DNA of 64,000 bases, taken from the NCBI RefSeq assembly GCF_020524285.1, contig NZ_JAIVKX010000002.1, forward strand, positions 248,001-312,000, in the 5' to 3' direction. Position 1 is the stretch's first letter. Every line of letters begins with the position of its first letter. The stretch is from Alloyangia pacifica. GTDB taxonomy: Bacteria; Pseudomonadota; Alphaproteobacteria; Rhodobacterales; Rhodobacteraceae. Positions 25,780-31,917 of this stretch are shown in pieces. The translations under genes were made by a program, and so were the position numbers. The notes under the pieces are model-generated. The model made no database searches and was not told where the DNA came from. It saw only the letters and a list, made by a program, of their open reading frames with translations.

Positions 25780-25865
25780 GCGAGTGTGGCGGAATGGTAG
25801 ACGCGACGGATTCAAAATCCGTTTCCCGAGAGGGAGTGTGGGTTCGAGTCCCACCACTCGTACCA
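25780..25865 (+). tRNA. tRNA-Leu(CAA)
   Basis: An 86-nt class II tRNA with encoded CCA. The acceptor stem pairs GCGAGTG with CACTCGT (one G-U at the end). The anticodon stem GACGGATT...AATCCGTTT carries CAA at 25813-25815. The variable arm is TCCCGAGAGGGAG and the T arm is GTGGGTTCGAGTCCCAC. Confidence 0.95.
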
Positions 25866-26207
25866 CAGGGCAGGCCGCCTGAAGGCCTTTCTCCGCAAGA
25901 GGATCACCGATCGAGCGCGCCGCCGTCTGGCAAGGGGTGAGACCGCGTGCCGCAGCGGCTGTCGGACACCTATTTGCGTCTCGCCGCGTTCGCCAGCTTG
26001 CCGGGCCCAACCGTGAGGTCCGATCACCTTCGGCCCGCCTCAACTTGAATCGTAGTGGTCTGAACGCCTGCAACGCGCGGCGGTAAATCCTGCGCGGGAG
26101 CGCCCATGGGCACGGGTGCAACGCCGTGGAGACACCGCGCAATGGCCGTAATTGTTCCTTAATTCGCGATCAAACGTTCCGCGTACTGTTTTGAAAGGTG
26201 TATCTAC
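25866..26207. other. Intergenic stretch after tRNA-Leu
   Basis: About 340 bp between the tRNA and the acidic protein gene. No second copy of the tRNA 3' end, integrase fragment or convincing frame was found. The last 60 bp before the gene are slightly AT-richer and probably hold its promoter, but no clear -35/-10 pair could be chosen. Confidence 0.5.
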
Positions 26208-26729
26208 ATGTCAGGTTTGATTTCCGGGGTTGGGTCTTCGGCGCAACTCGGCCTCTTCGGCGGGCTCGCGAATGCCGTCAGTGCGATGGCGTCCCAGCAG
26301 CAGACCGCCGCGACCGACACGCAGGACGCAGAGGATGCGGAGGTCACCGCCGTCGAGGCGAGTGCCGACGCAAGCGCCGGCGAAACAACCGCAGCGCAGC
26401 AATCGGACGAGACGAGCGGCGCTTCTGCGCAAAGCACGCAGAAGGCGGATTCGGCCTCCGACGTCTCCGGCGATGGCGTCGCGCTGCGCGCCGGCTCCGA
26501 TGGGGACGCGGCTGCGTCGGGCGATGAGGACGCGCTCGCAAAGGCCCGGGCAAAGGCGATCTCCACGCAGGAGAGCTTCACGAAGTCGCTGCTGCTTGCC
26601 CAGATGGCGGCCGGACCCGACGAAGACGGGCTGGCCCAGCGTCTGCGCCAGGGGGCCGAGAGCTATGCAAACGCCAGCACTCCCGCAGCGGAGGAAGGTG
26701 GCGCCGAACGCACCAGCGTCGCGGCCTGA
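26208..26729 (+). CDS. Acidic low-complexity protein of unknown function
   Basis: A 173-residue protein. Residues 1-35 are Gly/Ala/Gln-rich with a possible amphipathic helix (SSAQLGLFGGLANAVSAMAS). Residues 35-110 form an Ala/Asp/Glu/Thr/Ser/Gln-rich acidic region with no predicted fold. The C-terminal part (ISTQESFTKSLLLAQMAAGP, then AQRLRQGAESYANAS) is helical. There is no signal peptide and no recognised family. A strong terminator follows at 26760, so it is a separate unit from the membrane protein further on. It might be a secreted or surface-linked intrinsically disordered protein. Confidence 0.65.
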   Translation: MSGLISGVGSSAQLGLFGGLANAVSAMASQQQTAATDTQDAEDAEVTAVEASADASAGETTAAQQSDETSGASAQSTQKADSASDVSGDGVALRAGSDGDAAASGDEDALAKARAKAISTQESFTKSLLLAQMAAGPDEDGLAQRLRQGAESYANASTPAAEEGGAERTSVAA

Positions 26730-26759
26730 CGGTCAGGCGCTCAACTGATAGAACTGCTG

Positions 26760-26790
26760 CGGCGCGCGGATCTCTCCGCGCGCCGTTTTG
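26760..26790 (+). terminator. Rho-independent terminator
   Basis: A perfect 11-bp stem (26760-26770 with 26775-26785), a TCTC loop and TTTT. It closes the transcript of the acidic protein gene. Confidence 0.9.
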
Positions 26791-27171
26791 CTTTAACAGA
26801 CCGTTCTTGCGTCTGATGTATGGTCGCCCCGCGCTCGCACGGGTTTTTCCGAGACCCGCCCACAAGGTCAAGGCGCGAGACCGCTGCGCCCGCAGAGCGT
26901 GCGGCTCGGACGTTCTGGTGGCCGGTTCAACTCGCCCGGGCGGGAATGAAAATCCGATTTGAGGCCCGTTGTGCCGCGCGTTGCAACAGACATCGGGCAA
27001 GGCGCGCCGACGCGCGAGTTCGCGCAAAAGGTCGGGAAATCCAGACCTGCCGGCGCGCGTGTTTCGTGTTATGGTTGAAAAATCTATCAGTTTTTGTTAA
27101 AATCCACTCCTTAGAATTCGGTATGTCAAAGATGTTGCAAGATAATTTCTAGCAAAACCGGAGATTTACCT
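26791..27171. other. Intergenic stretch with AT-rich end
   Basis: About 380 bp with no convincing gene. The last 110 bp (from about 27060) are clearly AT-richer than the surroundings, with several T and A runs and a GATAAT-like box near 27140. It is the likely control region of the peptide/membrane-protein unit that follows. Confidence 0.5.
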
Positions 27172-27285
27172 ATGCGCATTTTGCTACTTTCGTTGAGCCT
27201 TCTCGTGACGATCCCGTCTGCGCTCGCGGTGTCCCAGCCCGCCATGGCTGCTGCCTGCGTGCCGACACAGCCCGATTGCCGGTAA
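27172..27285 (+). CDS. Small exported peptide (37 aa) heading the membrane-protein unit
   Basis: A 37-residue frame: MRILLLSLSLLVTIPSALAV, then a short mature part ending ACVPTQPDCR with two cysteines eight residues apart. The first 26 residues form a convincing signal peptide (cleavage near AMA). A CCGGAG element lies 11 bp before the ATG. The gene ends 59 bp before the 654-residue membrane protein on the same strand. It could be a small secreted peptide, or a leader whose translation controls the downstream genes. No family is recognised. Confidence 0.5.
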   Translation: MRILLLSLSLLVTIPSALAVSQPAMAAACVPTQPDCR

Positions 27286-27344
27286 GGCCGACCTGATTGC
27301 CTTTGGGGCCAAGAGCCTGAACTCACCGAACCGAGAGCACCGAC

Positions 27345-29309
27345 ATGTCAGAGATCGGAGCACTGCTCTTCGGGGCGGTCATCATCGTGTTTTTCTCGTA
27401 CGAGCGGTTCAACCGCGTCAGCTACGAGGGGAACGGTCGTCTTGAACGACTCGTCTACCTTCTGTCGCCTGACAAGCTGCGCGCGCGGCGCATCGTGCTG
27501 CGCGCCTATTTTGTCTACGTCGCGACGCAGCTGATGCTCTACCTATTCTTCTGCGCCTATGCCGAGGTGCTGCCGCTGATCGGTGGCCCGGTGCTGGGAG
27601 GCGGAGATATCGGCGCCAGCGAACTGCCGACCGTGGCCACCGAGGCCGCCGCCACCGCGGCGACGGGCTACTCCCCCGACAGCGACCTGATCTCCTGGAA
27701 CCAGCCGCTCGGCGCGGTGGAAGAACCTTCGCCCGGGTGGACCCTGGGGATCGCGCCCGAGGTGTCCCTGGCGGTTGCGCTGATCATGGTCGGGCTGGCG
27801 CCGAGCTTTCCGATCCTGCAGCGCTTCGAAGCCTGGATGCGAGACGCCACCCATCGCCTTGCGGGCATTCCCACCCATGTCATCGGCGCGGCAGAGGATC
27901 TGCGGCGCCGCACCCTCGACATCGGTCTCAAGAAAAGCGGAACGGGCCGCGCCGCGGACCCCAGGCCTGCCTTGCTGCCACGGGGCGATCTCGAGCGGCT
28001 GAAGGTCTACATGGAGGCCGAGGGCGGGAAGCTGCGGGCGCCGCTGGATTTCCGCAACGATCTGATCATCATCTTTGCCGTCTCCGATTGGGTCCTGTCG
28101 CGTGGTTTGAAGCTTTCGCACCTTGAGGTGCGGCACCGGTTCGAACCGCTGGAACGCGAATTGGCCGAGCGCGCCGAGAGCCTGATCCTCGCGCTCGACG
28201 AGCGCTCGGGCTTTCATCGCTCGGGCCTGCCGCAGCCCGCCGTACAAGAGCCCGCGGAAGAGGCGCCGGAGGACGTACGACAGGGCGCGAACTGGGAGCG
28301 GCTCGCGGGTGACGCCGAGAAGCTGGCAGACGACATGTGCCTGCTGCTGGCGCTCTACAACGAGCACGGGATCATCGATCTCGAAGCGGAGGACATTCCC
28401 GACACCGACTCTGCGACCGAAACCGTTCGGAAACATGGTCTTGCACTGGAAAGTTTGCGCAAGTTCTTTCAGTCGGGCAATGGGGATGCGGTGCCCCATG
28501 TTCCCGCCTCCAACACCCTGCCGGCCTGGATCTGGAGCACGGCGGCCGTGCTGGCGGTTACCTTCCTGTGGTATTCGCTGGGGCCGGGGCGGCTGGAGGT
28601 GGGGCTCGTCGGCTACTCGGGGTCGTTTTTCCTGCGCAGCCTGAGTGAGCTCATTTCCGCCTTCAACATCTTCGCGATTCCGATGATCGTGTCGCTCGGC
28701 ATCCGGGACGGCGGTCTGCATACGCATCGCTGGAACTACATGTCACGGCTGCACTGGACGCAATGGCTGCCACAGGCGGCGCTCGCGCTCTCGGCGTCCT
28801 GGGTGGTCGCCACGGTGATCATCGGCGGCCTTGTGCTCTGGTCTCCGCGAACCGTGGGAAGCTGGAACTTCGAAGAGTTGCTCGCCGTCTTCGCGTTCAA
28901 TGGTCCGATCGTCCTGAGGGGCGCCATCCTCTCGCTCATTGTGATCTGCGTTCTGGATTCGCCAGTTGCCCGTCGCCCGGACCGCCATCGCGCGTCCCGG
29001 TGGCGCAGCCTTGTCTGGGCGCTTCGCGCCGCGGTCTTGATGGGGCTGGTCGGGGCGCTGACCCGAATCCTGAACACCAAGGTCGCCGCCTCGAGCGCGC
29101 GTCCGCCCCGTCTCTGGCCCGACGGGATCGACTATGGCTTGATCGTCTACGCGACGGGGTACTCCGCACTGATCGGCTTCGTCGTCGTGTTTTGCGTGGC
29201 CGAGGCGGTGCAGAACCCGCAGCGCCGCTTTGGGGCGCGCACGACACCCGGGGGCGAATCCAAGTCCGGGACAGGACAACGCCGTGCCAAAGAAGCGGCC
29301 GCGGAGTGA
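27345..29309 (+). CDS. Large multi-pass membrane protein of unknown family
   Basis: A 654-residue protein. Membrane helices by eye: 4-19, 53-78, 137-157, 392-412, 428-452, 476-499, 512-536, 556-577 and 598-622. A soluble region of about 230 residues (160-390) lies between helices 3 and 4 and contains a coiled part (RFEPLERELAERAESLILAL) and an acidic stretch (QEPAEEAPED). The tail is basic. No known transporter, kinase, channel or transferase motif was recognised. Its stop overlaps a GTG of the next gene, so translation of the two is probably coupled. Base composition resembles the rest of the chromosome. It may be a sensor or channel partner for the binding-protein gene. Confidence 0.8.
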   Translation: MSEIGALLFGAVIIVFFSYERFNRVSYEGNGRLERLVYLLSPDKLRARRIVLRAYFVYVATQLMLYLFFCAYAEVLPLIGGPVLGGGDIGASELPTVATEAAATAATGYSPDSDLISWNQPLGAVEEPSPGWTLGIAPEVSLAVALIMVGLAPSFPILQRFEAWMRDATHRLAGIPTHVIGAAEDLRRRTLDIGLKKSGTGRAADPRPALLPRGDLERLKVYMEAEGGKLRAPLDFRNDLIIIFAVSDWVLSRGLKLSHLEVRHRFEPLERELAERAESLILALDERSGFHRSGLPQPAVQEPAEEAPEDVRQGANWERLAGDAEKLADDMCLLLALYNEHGIIDLEAEDIPDTDSATETVRKHGLALESLRKFFQSGNGDAVPHVPASNTLPAWIWSTAAVLAVTFLWYSLGPGRLEVGLVGYSGSFFLRSLSELISAFNIFAIPMIVSLGIRDGGLHTHRWNYMSRLHWTQWLPQAALALSASWVVATVIIGGLVLWSPRTVGSWNFEELLAVFAFNGPIVLRGAILSLIVICVLDSPVARRPDRHRASRWRSLVWALRAAVLMGLVGALTRILNTKVAASSARPPRLWPDGIDYGLIVYATGYSALIGFVVVFCVAEAVQNPQRRFGARTTPGGESKSGTGQRRAKEAAAE

Positions 29310-29314
29310 AGCGC

Positions 29315-30649
29315 ATGAAGGCACCGATTATTGCCGCGCTGCTTGTGCTGATGCTCTCGAGCATGCCCCTGCGCGCACAGACCACTTCGTTCGGAGACAT
29401 AAGGATCGGGGCGCGGGCCGATGCCCGGCCGTTTGTCTGGAAGGAGGCGCGCAGCGGCGCCATGCCCGTCGAGGGGCGTGAGACAGGGGAATTCCTCGGG
29501 TTTTTCTGGGACATCTGCACCGAGGCCGTTGCGCGGGCCGGCTATGATTACGGCGGTAGTGTCGAGGAGGTGGATAGCGAAATGCGCCAGGCGTTTCTGC
29601 AAAGCGGTGAAGGGGGATACGACCTTCTGTGCGATCCGACCACGATCACCCTGTCTCGGATGGCAGGCTTCGCGCCGGGCGCACCCGCGGCCGCGCTGGA
29701 ATTCTCCCCGATCATCTTCGTTGCAAATGGCACCTTCGTTCAGCAGGAGCGCGGCGCGTCAGCGCCCTTCGCCTCGGGAAAGCTGCCGATCGGAAAGGCA
29801 GAGGCTGCGGAGGTGGCGGTGGAGCTCACGGCGCGCGGCGTGGATGCTCCGCCGCAGCAGGATGGCGCTGCGGCGCCGCTGGAGATGTGCCGCCATGTCA
29901 GGGCATGGCTCGACACTTCGACAGGCTCCGCCCCGTCCGAGGAGTTTCCGTGGCCACCGTCTGACAGCGCGGAACAGCCGGTCGATGAAAGCCCTTCCGA
30001 GGATGAGGCCCCGTCAGGGGAGGAGGCAGAGGCGGCCGACGCGGGCGGCACGAAGACGCGCTGGCCGGGACTGGAGACCGTTGGGACCTGGTTCAAGTCC
30101 TTCGTCGAAGAGGCCATGCTGGTCCGGCCGCCGGCGACCAAAACGGATGATTTGCACTTCCGGGTCTGGGGCTACGTGGCTGGTTCGACCATCGGCGCGG
30201 AACTCGAGCGGGACTTCCGGCCGGGCGGGACCACGCGGCAGGCCGAGAGCGACGTCAACCTGATCACCTGCCTCACGCCATTCGCGTCCCATGCCGAGGC
30301 GGCAGAGGCTTTCTGCCAGGGTCGGCTGGCGCAGTATTTCGGCGATGCGGAGATCGTGAAGGCGGCGCTGCGGACATACCGCGAGGCGAGCGGAGAGGCC
30401 TGTGCGGCCGACCTGAATCCGACCCGGCAGGGCACCTACGAGCCCTATGCGTTCGTCCTTTCGCGCGCGCGCTATCCGGATTTCCCCGAGCGGTTTGTCC
30501 TGGCGCTCTACGGCATGTTCGAAGACGAGACGGTGGAGCGCCTGTTCCGCGGACATTTCCCGGACGTCGAAGCTTCGGACTACCTGCAGACGCTGTTCCG
30601 GATCAACCGCATCCCGCGCGGCAGTGGCGCCGGGGCCGGTGAGCCATAG
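29315..30649 (+). CDS. Periplasmic binding-protein-like protein with acidic insert
   Basis: A 444-residue protein with a signal peptide (residues 1-21, cleavage after LRA). Residues 26-145 match the first lobe of the family-3 solute-binding fold: IRIGARADARPFVW, GFFWDICTEAVARAGYDYGG and YDLLCDPTTITLSRM (the usual CDPTTIT ligand-loop region). Residues 145-275 form an acidic Ser/Pro/Glu insert. Residues 280-435 match the second lobe (VWGYVAGSTIGAELERDF, YEPYAFVLSRARYPDF, LYGMFEDETVERLFRGHF). The start codon lies 5 bp after the stop of the membrane protein (a GTG overlapping it is the alternative). No permease or ATPase is nearby. Confidence 0.8.
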   Translation: MKAPIIAALLVLMLSSMPLRAQTTSFGDIRIGARADARPFVWKEARSGAMPVEGRETGEFLGFFWDICTEAVARAGYDYGGSVEEVDSEMRQAFLQSGEGGYDLLCDPTTITLSRMAGFAPGAPAAALEFSPIIFVANGTFVQQERGASAPFASGKLPIGKAEAAEVAVELTARGVDAPPQQDGAAAPLEMCRHVRAWLDTSTGSAPSEEFPWPPSDSAEQPVDESPSEDEAPSGEEAEAADAGGTKTRWPGLETVGTWFKSFVEEAMLVRPPATKTDDLHFRVWGYVAGSTIGAELERDFRPGGTTRQAESDVNLITCLTPFASHAEAAEAFCQGRLAQYFGDAEIVKAALRTYREASGEACAADLNPTRQGTYEPYAFVLSRARYPDFPERFVLALYGMFEDETVERLFRGHFPDVEASDYLQTLFRINRIPRGSGAGAGEP

Positions 30650-30815
30650 CGCCCGGCGACTGCCGCTTGCAGGTCGTGGTGGGCCGGGTTGTGGAGCACC
30701 ACTTGCGGGGCAGGCCGTGAAGGCGCGGGAGCGGGCAACGACAGAGCGCCATGGCGCCTTGCGGTGTCTTGAAGACACGGCAGGCAATCCATGGCGCTAT
30801 CCGAAGTAAATAGCT

Positions 30816-30832
30816 ACTTTCCCGAAGGAAAG
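30816..30832 (-). terminator. Terminator of tRNA-Ser
   Basis: ACTTTCC paired with GGAAAG(T), loop CGAA, directly after the tRNA-Ser CCA end on the minus strand; the last base pair uses position 30833. Confidence 0.6.
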
Positions 30833-30922
30833 TGGCGGAGAGACAGGGATTCGAACCCTGGGACCCCGTGAAGGGTCAACGGTTTTCGAGACCGCCCCGT
30901 TCGACCACTCCGGCACCTCTCC
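30833..30922 (-). tRNA. tRNA-Ser(CGA)
   Basis: A 90-nt class II tRNA with encoded CCA. The acceptor stem pairs GGAGAGG with TCTCTCC. The anticodon CGA is at 30886-30888 (reverse strand) within GGTCTCGAAAACC. A long variable arm and a GGGTTCGAATCCC T arm follow. Confidence 0.95.
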
Positions 30923-31107
30923 GCGGGGGTCGTGGGGGGCCGTTTAACGACAAGCTCGGGGGGGTGCAACAGGGAATTTTGAAGTTTTTTCGTCCGGGCG
31001 AAATTCTTTTCCGGCGAAGCTCCGCCGCCGCGGGATCTCGTCACCTTGGAAATGCCGGAGCCCGGCCCTAGGCTATGAGGCTGTCACATCCGGAGTACCC
31101 GCGTCCC

Positions 31108-31917
31108 ATGTTCCCGCGCCTTGCCGTCTGCGCCTTTGCCGCCAGCCTTGCCATGCCCGCCCATGCGGAACCCGCAGAGGAAATTCTCGATGCGCTGAAG
31201 ATCGGCGAGATCGTCGAGCTCATGCGCGAGGAGGGGCAGGGATACTCGGCCGAGATGGCCCAGGACTTGCTCCCCGCCGGCGAGACCGAGGCTTGGCGGG
31301 ACGCCGTCGCGCGGCTCTATGCGCCCGAGGCCATGGAAGAGGTCGTGCGTGCGGGATTCCTCGAGAGCTTCGGCGACACCGACGCCGGGCCGCTGCTCGA
31401 CTATTTCTCCAGCGAGGCCGGGCAGCGGGTCGTCGATCTGGAGATCGAGGCCCGGCGCGAGATGATCAACCCCGAGGTCGAGGCCGCCGCGCGCGAGGCC
31501 TGGCGCGAAGGGGCAGGGGGCGGCGACGCCCGGCTCGCGCAACTCGATGCCTTCGTCGCGGCGAACGACCTGCTGGACACCAATGTGACCGGCGCGCTAA
31601 ATGCCAGCTTCCAGTTCTATCTCGGCCTCGTGGATGGCGGCGGGCTGGAAATGACCGAATCCGAGATCGTCGAAGAGGTCTGGATGCAGGAGGAGGTGAC
31701 GCGGGCCGACACCCGCGAATGGCTCTACAGCTACCTTCTGCTGGCCTACCAGCCGCTCACGGACGCGGAGCTGCAGGACTATCTCGATGTGTCCGCGACG
31801 CCCGAGGGCAAGGCGATGAACCGCGCGCTGTTCGCCGGCTTCAATCACATGTATAACGAGATCTCTTATGGCCTTGGATTGGCCGCCGCGCGCGAGATGC
31901 TGGGCCAGGACCTTTAA
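31108..31917 (+). CDS. DUF2059 domain exported protein
   Basis: A 269-residue protein with a signal peptide (RLAVCAFAASLAMPAHA). The mature part is helical and carries two repeats of the DUF2059 pattern: a helix followed by (L/Y)(L/F)xYFSSEAGQR and QDYLDVSATPEGKAMNRALF. DUF2059 proteins are exported helical proteins of unknown role. The internal ATG at 31108 was chosen because the signal peptide begins there. It stands alone between the tRNA and the ribosomal protein genes. Confidence 0.82.
   Translation: MFPRLAVCAFAASLAMPAHAEPAEEILDALKIGEIVELMREEGQGYSAEMAQDLLPAGETEAWRDAVARLYAPEAMEEVVRAGFLESFGDTDAGPLLDYFSSEAGQRVVDLEIEARREMINPEVEAAAREAWREGAGGGDARLAQLDAFVAANDLLDTNVTGALNASFQFYLGLVDGGGLEMTESEIVEEVWMQEEVTRADTREWLYSYLLLAYQPLTDAELQDYLDVSATPEGKAMNRALFAGFNHMYNEISYGLGLAAAREMLGQDL

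Follow-up and report, generated by a model that had tools for sequence, protein, structure and literature searches.

An alphaproteobacterial gene cassette for an exported two-cysteine peptide, an unclassified membrane protein and a solute-binding protein: a candidate periplasm-facing receptor

The window examined here is a stretch of 64,000 nucleotides from Alloyangia pacifica (Alphaproteobacteria; Rhodobacteraceae; contig NZ_JAIVKX010000002.1, positions 248,001 to 312,000), and its subject is a row of three genes encoding a small exported peptide, a membrane protein (MEM) and a solute-binding protein (SBP). ARAGORN places exactly two tRNA genes in the window, tRNA-Leu(CAA) at 25780-25865 on the plus strand and tRNA-Ser(CGA) at 30833-30922 on the minus strand. 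Between them, all on the plus strand, lie genes for an acidic protein of 173 amino acids (26208-26729), the peptide of 37 amino acids (27172-27285), made up of a signal peptide and a tail ending in AACVPTQPDCR, MEM of 654 amino acids (27345-29309) and SBP of 444 amino acids (29315-30649), predicted to be exported. These positions agree with an earlier, sequence-only reading of the window, which had proposed a two-part receptor or channel pair of MEM and SBP on an island bounded by the tRNA genes. The translational coupling of MEM and SBP that it also assumed is likely, as the two genes are 5 nt apart in the window, but they do not overlap there. The gap between them ranges from −43 to +33 nt at the 28 loci measured, with a larger gap at locus L028, where MEM appears to be split. 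Among the genes between the tRNAs, no ATP-binding cassette (ABC) permease or ATPase was found, and none of the four gave a Pfam match to an integrase.

MEM and SBP were found to be paired well beyond the window. Searches started from MEM gave 15 judgeable loci, the window included, with SBP adjacent or fused at 12; no SBP was found in the stretches from genomes G023 (L010), G126 (L025) and G497 (L039). For the reverse test, genome contigs were scanned with an SBP alignment whose sole motif was D[LI]LCDP[TAV]T[IV], and the MEM profile applied to the hits had been built before that scan. Of the 44 stretches obtained, 32 were confirmed, representing 30 distinct loci, and MEM stands directly upstream of SBP at 29 of these, the miss being L065. 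Seven of the 30 loci (L041, L045, L048, L052, L061, L062 and L068) were already-known pairs whose SBPs were in the query; among the fresh loci only, MEM is upstream in 22/23. Counted over all searches there are 38 distinct MEM loci, and SBP is adjacent or fused at 35; many of these 35 came from the SBP query, and the two search directions are therefore counted apart. Three further stretches stand outside the 38: L040 (genome G002), where MEM is cut by the contig end and joined to a piece of SBP; L074 (G1022), a fragment; and L012, where SBP lies with proteases and no MEM is present on the 9.3-kb contig. The L040 sequence, on a 6.3-kb contig from a congener, was read by us as a remnant in which part of MEM runs in frame into part of SBP (101-2131), and that contig also holds open reading frames (ORFs) that we read as resolvase-like and Tn3-transposase-like.

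In three relatives, MEM and SBP form a single polypeptide (L026, 1066 aa; L027, 975 aa; L053, 997 aa), which supports one two-part device, as the sequence-only reading had supposed for this pair. Two of the fusions, L026 and L027, carry an additional hydrophobic stretch between the MEM and SBP parts, which fits a cytosolic C-terminus of MEM and a periplasmic SBP. A joint alignment of the fused L053 protein with separate MEM and SBP rows pulled the MEM C-termini into SBP and was not folded.

The flanking genes of 34 loci, at most two per side, numbered 133, of which 127 were scanned, the unscanned ones being the four of the window and two short ORFs. ABC_tran was matched by 3/127 of these near neighbours, and the 25 families shown for them, out of 188, do not include BPD_transp_1. 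Among distal genes of 29 loci, thinned at random from 142 to 127, ABC_tran and BPD_transp_1 were each matched by 3/127. The commonest family listed for the near neighbours was Trypsin_2 (4/127), and the listed families reveal no fourth gene that is constant. The expectation that the pair keeps together without ABC genes in relatives is borne out: the pairing is retained, and there is no recurrent ABC partner. At one locus (L031:2046-3980), a gene for a membrane protein with what we read as pentapeptide-like repeats follows SBP by 7 bp on the same strand and is a possible fourth member there.

The most constant partner of MEM is the exported peptide, which the sequence-only reading had listed correctly but had not recognised in that role. 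A first search for short ORFs with a hydrophobic start in the 500 bp upstream of MEM gave counterparts of the window peptide with the same kind of tail. A uniform scan, requiring a two-cysteine tail and an ORF end within 135 bp of the gene, found such an ORF with a hydrophobic start upstream of MEM, on the same strand, at all 38 loci, at distances of 16-122 bp. A strict C[ND]Px4C tail is present in 31/38 peptides; six residues separate the cysteines in 35/38, and seven, five and four in one peptide each. As a control, 480 other genes of the same loci gave nine matches when the hydrophobic-start rule was dropped and one with it, and that one is the MEM of L030 called with a later start; the control genes also include two MEM genes with later starts (L064 and L066) and some SBP genes. 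An earlier scan with a 100-bp limit, with L088 left out, had found the peptide at 36/37 MEM genes and at 0/468 others, missing L038, where the peptide is 122 bp away; the L038 and L039 peptides were first spotted by eye. Given so strict an association (38/38 MEM loci against 1/480 other genes, itself MEM), a real three-part device is very likely. The predicted genes stand in the order peptide, MEM, SBP on one strand and close together, the last two sometimes as one polypeptide.

At seven loci chosen for the identical segment CNPAVQQC, six of the eight codons vary at silent positions; the predicted amino acids stay constant while the DNA drifts. In the peptide ORFs generally, the tail comes after the hydrophobic segment. 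Peptides are present at L010, L025 and L039, which have MEM without SBP (the L039 tail is looser), and the pattern scan found none near L012 and L065, the two SBP loci without MEM, so the peptide seems to belong with MEM. The window peptide matched no family in Pfam or NCBIfam at expect values (E) up to 1. At L027, two tandem peptide ORFs, with CNPLIQKC and CNPEIQKC, lie upstream of 7257 on the minus strand, before one fused MEM-SBP gene.

MEM is a predicted polytopic membrane protein of an unrecognised family. Searches of Pfam, NCBIfam and PADLOC gave no family for it at E up to 1, and a Foldseek comparison of its model with the PDB gave nothing below E 1.7, in agreement with the earlier statement that the family is not recognised. 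Similarity to an ABC permease, which the sequence-only reading had named among the findings that would overturn it, was looked for and not seen in the family and fold libraries searched. Hydropathy and an AlphaFold2 model (mean predicted local distance difference test, pLDDT, 74.9; predicted template modelling score, pTM, 0.65) fit nine transmembrane (TM) helices, three before and six after a cytosolic stretch of some 232 residues (about 159-390), confirming the large cytosolic domain that had been proposed; the helix limits are our reading of hydropathy and model. In an alignment of 27 rows, 30 columns are identical in at least 22, of which 18 were placed on the cytosolic side and 10 in TM helices. 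Ten of the 18 fall at 162-186, and the strongest conserved cluster is a juxtamembrane motif with the family consensus ExxxRxxAHRxAGIP at 162-176. A phage origin was considered and rejected: comparison of MEM with viral models by Foldseek gave no significant match, and no relative was found in viral contigs with the window MEM as sole query, a search that reaches close relatives only.

SBP is predicted to have the family-3 amino-acid-binding fold, judging by profile, model and ligand-site residues, which bears out its earlier description as a periplasmic solute-binding-like protein. A profile of 29 SBPs matched the PDB entries of AncQR (E 1.6e-12), DEBP (9.9e-11) and Slr1257 (0.006), the last of which we take to be GluR0. 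The AlphaFold2 model (pLDDT 76.3, pTM 0.73) had DEBP as its best structural match (E 7.0e-11; TM-score 0.70 by target), with ligand-binding domains of ionotropic glutamate receptors (iGluRs) among the matches from rank 10 onward. The related SBP of L012 matches PF00497 at 2.3e-10, and the window SBP alone stays below the Pfam threshold for SBP_bac_3 (15.9 bits vs a cut-off of 26.4). Arg115, at the TxxR position, and Asp344 are invariant in 29/29 rows, and neither lies in the search motif; their counterparts in the AncQR alignment are TITEER and the D of VTD, and in family 3 these two residues bind the carboxylate and the amino group of the amino-acid ligand. In an earlier set of 12 rows, Arg115 was absent in one (L027). 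Four cysteines (68, 106, 334 and 363) are likewise invariant in 29/29 rows, Cys106 lying within the search motif, and the window SBP carries an acidic insert at about 180-280.

The acidic gene upstream has a history of its own. Its protein was matched in 7/12 other congeners searched and in 0/8 more distant genomes. In two congeners without a MEM match (G009 and G010), the order tRNA-Leu, acidic gene, tRNA-Ser and next genes is preserved, the tRNAs being 1035 and 996 bp apart, respectively, vs 4967 bp in the window; blastn similarity of the window to these genomes stops at 26730 and 26729 and restarts at 30742. The acidic gene adjoins tRNA-Ser without MEM or SBP in four of five fetched stretches (G005, G009, G010 and G011; ARAGORN found no tRNA-Leu in that of G011), and lies at another location in the fifth (G007). 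In G005, a MEM-SBP pair occurs at a different site, and the inter-tRNA stretch of 1881 bp is without it. Because acidic gene and tRNAs are kept in order without MEM and SBP in congeners, we conclude that a cassette of about 4.0 kb (26730..30741, edges approximate), comprising the peptide, MEM and SBP genes, was gained between these older neighbours, or lost in the others, and that the acidic gene is a member of the older site. The cassette has a GC content of 0.652 and its flanks have 0.658 and 0.670; the edges (26600-27200 vs 30600-31000) have no word of at least 11 bases in common, direct or inverted.

Of the island proposed earlier, the accessory insertion itself stands, as it is sporadic, measures 4 kb and is absent at this site in the four related species inspected. 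Its tRNA boundaries do not: the tRNAs were neighbours before the cassette, with only about 1 kb between them in two congeners, and it extends from the acidic gene to about 90 bp before tRNA-Ser. A tRNA-integrated island was rejected on these grounds and on the lack of edge repeats, and the acidic protein was likewise rejected as a component of the device. Past tRNA-Ser, a gene for a DUF2059 protein (31075-31917) is kept at the site in congeners.

The distribution of the family is sporadic. With the genome of the window included in each count, MEM was found in 4/20 genomes of the genus, 11/394 of the family sample, 3/385 of the class sample and 4/398 of the phylum sample, where one copy is a fragment and all four belong to the class of the window; for the last three samples the best three candidates per genome were scored, so that these counts are lower bounds. 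All 30 SBP-motif loci are alphaproteobacterial. In the MEM tree, the window clusters with rows from Rhizobiaceae, Stappiaceae, Cereibacter and Roseobacteraceae (nine rows, support 97/96), while the Salipiger thiooxidans row belongs to the other deep clade and the A. pacifica row to a third set, both flagged as long branches of unsure placement. Three near relatives thus carry highly divergent copies, each at a site of its own; horizontal spread is the best explanation for this, and the family as a whole looks to have spread in that way. Part of the spread looks vertical from common neighbourhoods in the second clade. Three copies of that clade (L031, L057 and L058) share, partly by our reading, a neighbourhood with Band_7/NfeD-like genes upstream, and in L057 and L058 Fe-S assembly genes lie downstream of the MEM-SBP copies.

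Overall, the explanation we favour is a set of three genes, spread horizontally, whose products would form a single receptor complex facing the periplasm; we give this reading a probability of roughly one half. The earlier proposal of a two-part receptor or channel pair stands as regards the conserved MEM-SBP pairing, which the fusions support, but the device very probably has a third part, the exported peptide. In the proposed mechanism, removal of the signal peptide would leave a peptide of about 9-14 residues, closed into a ring by a disulphide between cysteines that mostly have six residues separating them. SBP would close on an amino-acid-like ligand through Arg115 and Asp344, and loaded SBP would dock on the periplasmic face of MEM. 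The peptide would be an obligate ligand or a structural subunit of the MEM-SBP complex. MEM would relay the change via the conserved juxtamembrane helix at 162-176 to the helical cytosolic domain at about 159-390, which would signal inside the cell. A tentative extension, for which the odds are clearly unfavourable, is that the disulphide-closed (mostly C-x6-C), ribosomally made, exported peptide is the dedicated ligand of MEM, with SBP adding a second, amino-acid-like input, making the complex a self- or neighbour-sensing receptor in Gram-negative Alphaproteobacteria.

Several observations weigh against the receptor. Three of the 38 MEM loci are without SBP, and a permissive, A-x-A-like cleavage-site pattern is present in 28/38 peptides. 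No enzyme, kinase or DNA-binding domain was recognised in MEM, and the listed neighbour families include no constant downstream regulator. Confidence in the MEM model is intermediate, and mean conservation of the whole cytosolic domain (0.34) is below that of TM1-3 (0.48-0.53), a profile that would suit a transporter or channel too. In addition, the predicted peptide ring is common to several genera, which sets it apart from most strain-specific pheromones.

The main rival is an SBP-dependent importer, in which MEM would be a single new permease replacing the parts of an ABC, tripartite ATP-independent periplasmic (TRAP) or tripartite tricarboxylate transporter (TTT) system, with the peptide as a small subunit or assembly factor. 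SBPs usually feed transporters, MEM has about nine TM helices of which TM1-3 are the best conserved regions on average, the amino-acid-site residues are retained in SBP, and MEM and SBP are fused in some genomes. However, MEM matches no transporter family or fold in the libraries searched, the TRAP and TTT membrane families DctM/DctQ and TctA/TctB among those of Pfam and NCBIfam included (E up to 1). Conserved charged residues within its assigned TM helices are few and lie at helix ends (E74, R454 and D538), three MEM loci lack SBP, and import leaves the large cytosolic domain and the juxtamembrane motif unexplained. An importer is for these reasons unlikely, though the closest competitor of the receptor.

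A second rival concerns the peptide ORF, which may be a regulatory leader, that is, an export- or metal-sensing upstream ORF (uORF) or a translation-arrest peptide controlling expression of MEM and SBP, the released peptide being functionless. Such a leader would look like the ORF seen here, which is short, exported, conserved at its end and situated just before the gene of a membrane protein. As precedents, arrest peptides (ApdP) upstream of secDF in Alphaproteobacteria and the uORFs CruR and CutF preceding other genes have been described (PMC10987492). The tails, however, end in C[ND]PxxxxCx or similar without a RAPP-like motif, and the residue in last place is not fixed (R, N, P, L, W, I, T, C and others). 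Both cysteines are retained where the remaining tail changes, and the length of some peptides is a mere 32 aa or so. The junction of peptide and MEM genes shows no RNA structure in excess of control (mean z −0.29, with 1/37 below −2, vs −0.40 and 2/37 for a MEM stretch). A pure leader therefore appears improbable.

It is less probable still that the complex is a ligand-gated channel, with SBP binding opening a pore in MEM as in iGluRs. The resemblance of the SBP model to DEBP and to iGluR ligand-binding domains and the reach of its profile to Slr1257 point that way. In prokaryotic iGluRs, SBP sections flank two TM helices (PMC2950845). Here SBP is undivided and forms either a protein of its own or the C-terminal part of a fusion, the cytosolic domain of MEM is set between three and six helices, and the MEM model matched no channel fold in the PDB.

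Weakest is a conflict system, in which the peptide would be an effector or recognition tag and MEM-SBP would serve immunity or release together with neighbouring hydrolases. Genes of Trypsin_2, S8, papain-like, caspase, M15, nuclease or lysozyme type adjoin several copies; a papain-like family present in 16/394 genomes of the family sample (best two candidates per genome scored, so that counts are lower bounds) occurs together with MEM in three, against about 0.45 expected (one-sided Fisher p 0.007), and its gene adjoins MEM-SBP in G387 (L023) and, outside that sample, in L056; and alphaproteobacterial trypsin-NucA systems have been reported (PMC7159879). A conflict role is nonetheless very improbable, as the genes are adjacent in only one (G387) of the three co-occurrence genomes, MEM or SBP was found in 0/14 fetched papain-like stretches (of 15 besides G387), most copies, the window included, are without hydrolases among the neighbouring genes inspected, and PADLOC defence families were matched by none of MEM, SBP and the acidic protein. 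The link to hydrolase cassettes was set aside as weak.

Some of these hydrolase rows are of interest in themselves. A separate Rhodobacterales module (L104-L117, e.g. L104:4808-10432 and L105:8983-13783; also L056:11259-16871) holds a papain-like protein, which in many cases has a second large protein next to it; such a protein in L056 and L030 joins GDSL, caspase or amidase and M15 peptidase domains. At L010:8522-14013, genes for an animal-type haem peroxidase, a subtilase and a PAP2 protein with GNA repeats stand in a row by a MEM that has the peptide and lacks SBP. In the congener locus L012:2222-7587, a subtilase, a trypsin-like protease and the related SBP form a tight row.

Returning to the receptor reading, our literature search found no description of this cassette or of such a peptide-based receptor, most subscription papers lying outside that search. 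Should the peptide be a ligand, Gram-negative bacteria would have a new form of peptide sensing; should MEM be a permease, it would represent a new class of SBP-dependent transporter. The cassette further illustrates that the neighbours of an orphan SBP, and not the loss of an ABC transporter, can account for it. Annotation probably misses the peptide genes because of their shortness.

How does the cassette compare with known systems? SBP shares the fold and the positions of the TxxR Arg and lobe-2 Asp with family-3 binding proteins (SBP_bac_3, PF00497; DEBP, 2vha/2ia4; AncQR, 4zv1); it differs in that no ABC partner was found for it, in its four invariant cysteines and, in the window, in the long acidic insert. 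TRAP and TTT systems are SBP-dependent secondary transporters without an ATPase and as a rule have two membrane subunits. The cassette likewise consists of an SBP plus a membrane protein and no ATPase, but MEM matches none of their Pfam or NCBIfam families. The EACC1-caspase 'System 4' (PMC7159879) is a two-gene membrane system in which some proteins have TM helices and an extracellular periplasmic-binding-protein (PBP) domain; in the window cassette, by contrast, no caspase family was matched in Pfam (EACC1 itself was not searched for), and MEM and SBP are constant. Like SecM, VemP and ApdP, the peptide comes from a short ORF that precedes another gene and codes for an exported product with a conserved end, but, unlike arrest peptides of the Sec/YidC type, it has a two-cysteine end without a RAPP-like motif and precedes MEM rather than a sec or yidC gene. 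With prokaryotic iGluRs (GluR0 and kin) the cassette shares an SBP-type amino-acid domain tied to a membrane protein; the differences are that its SBP is uninterrupted and placed after MEM, as a rule in a gene of its own, or at the C-terminus in fusions, and that MEM combines about nine TM helices with a cytosolic domain. In SBP-assisted receptors such as LuxP/LuxQ and ChvE/VirA, a free SBP reports its ligand to a membrane protein. MEM differs from LuxQ and VirA in being without a kinase or other recognised output domain, but the working idea, by analogy, is the same: a free SBP that would signal to its membrane partner.

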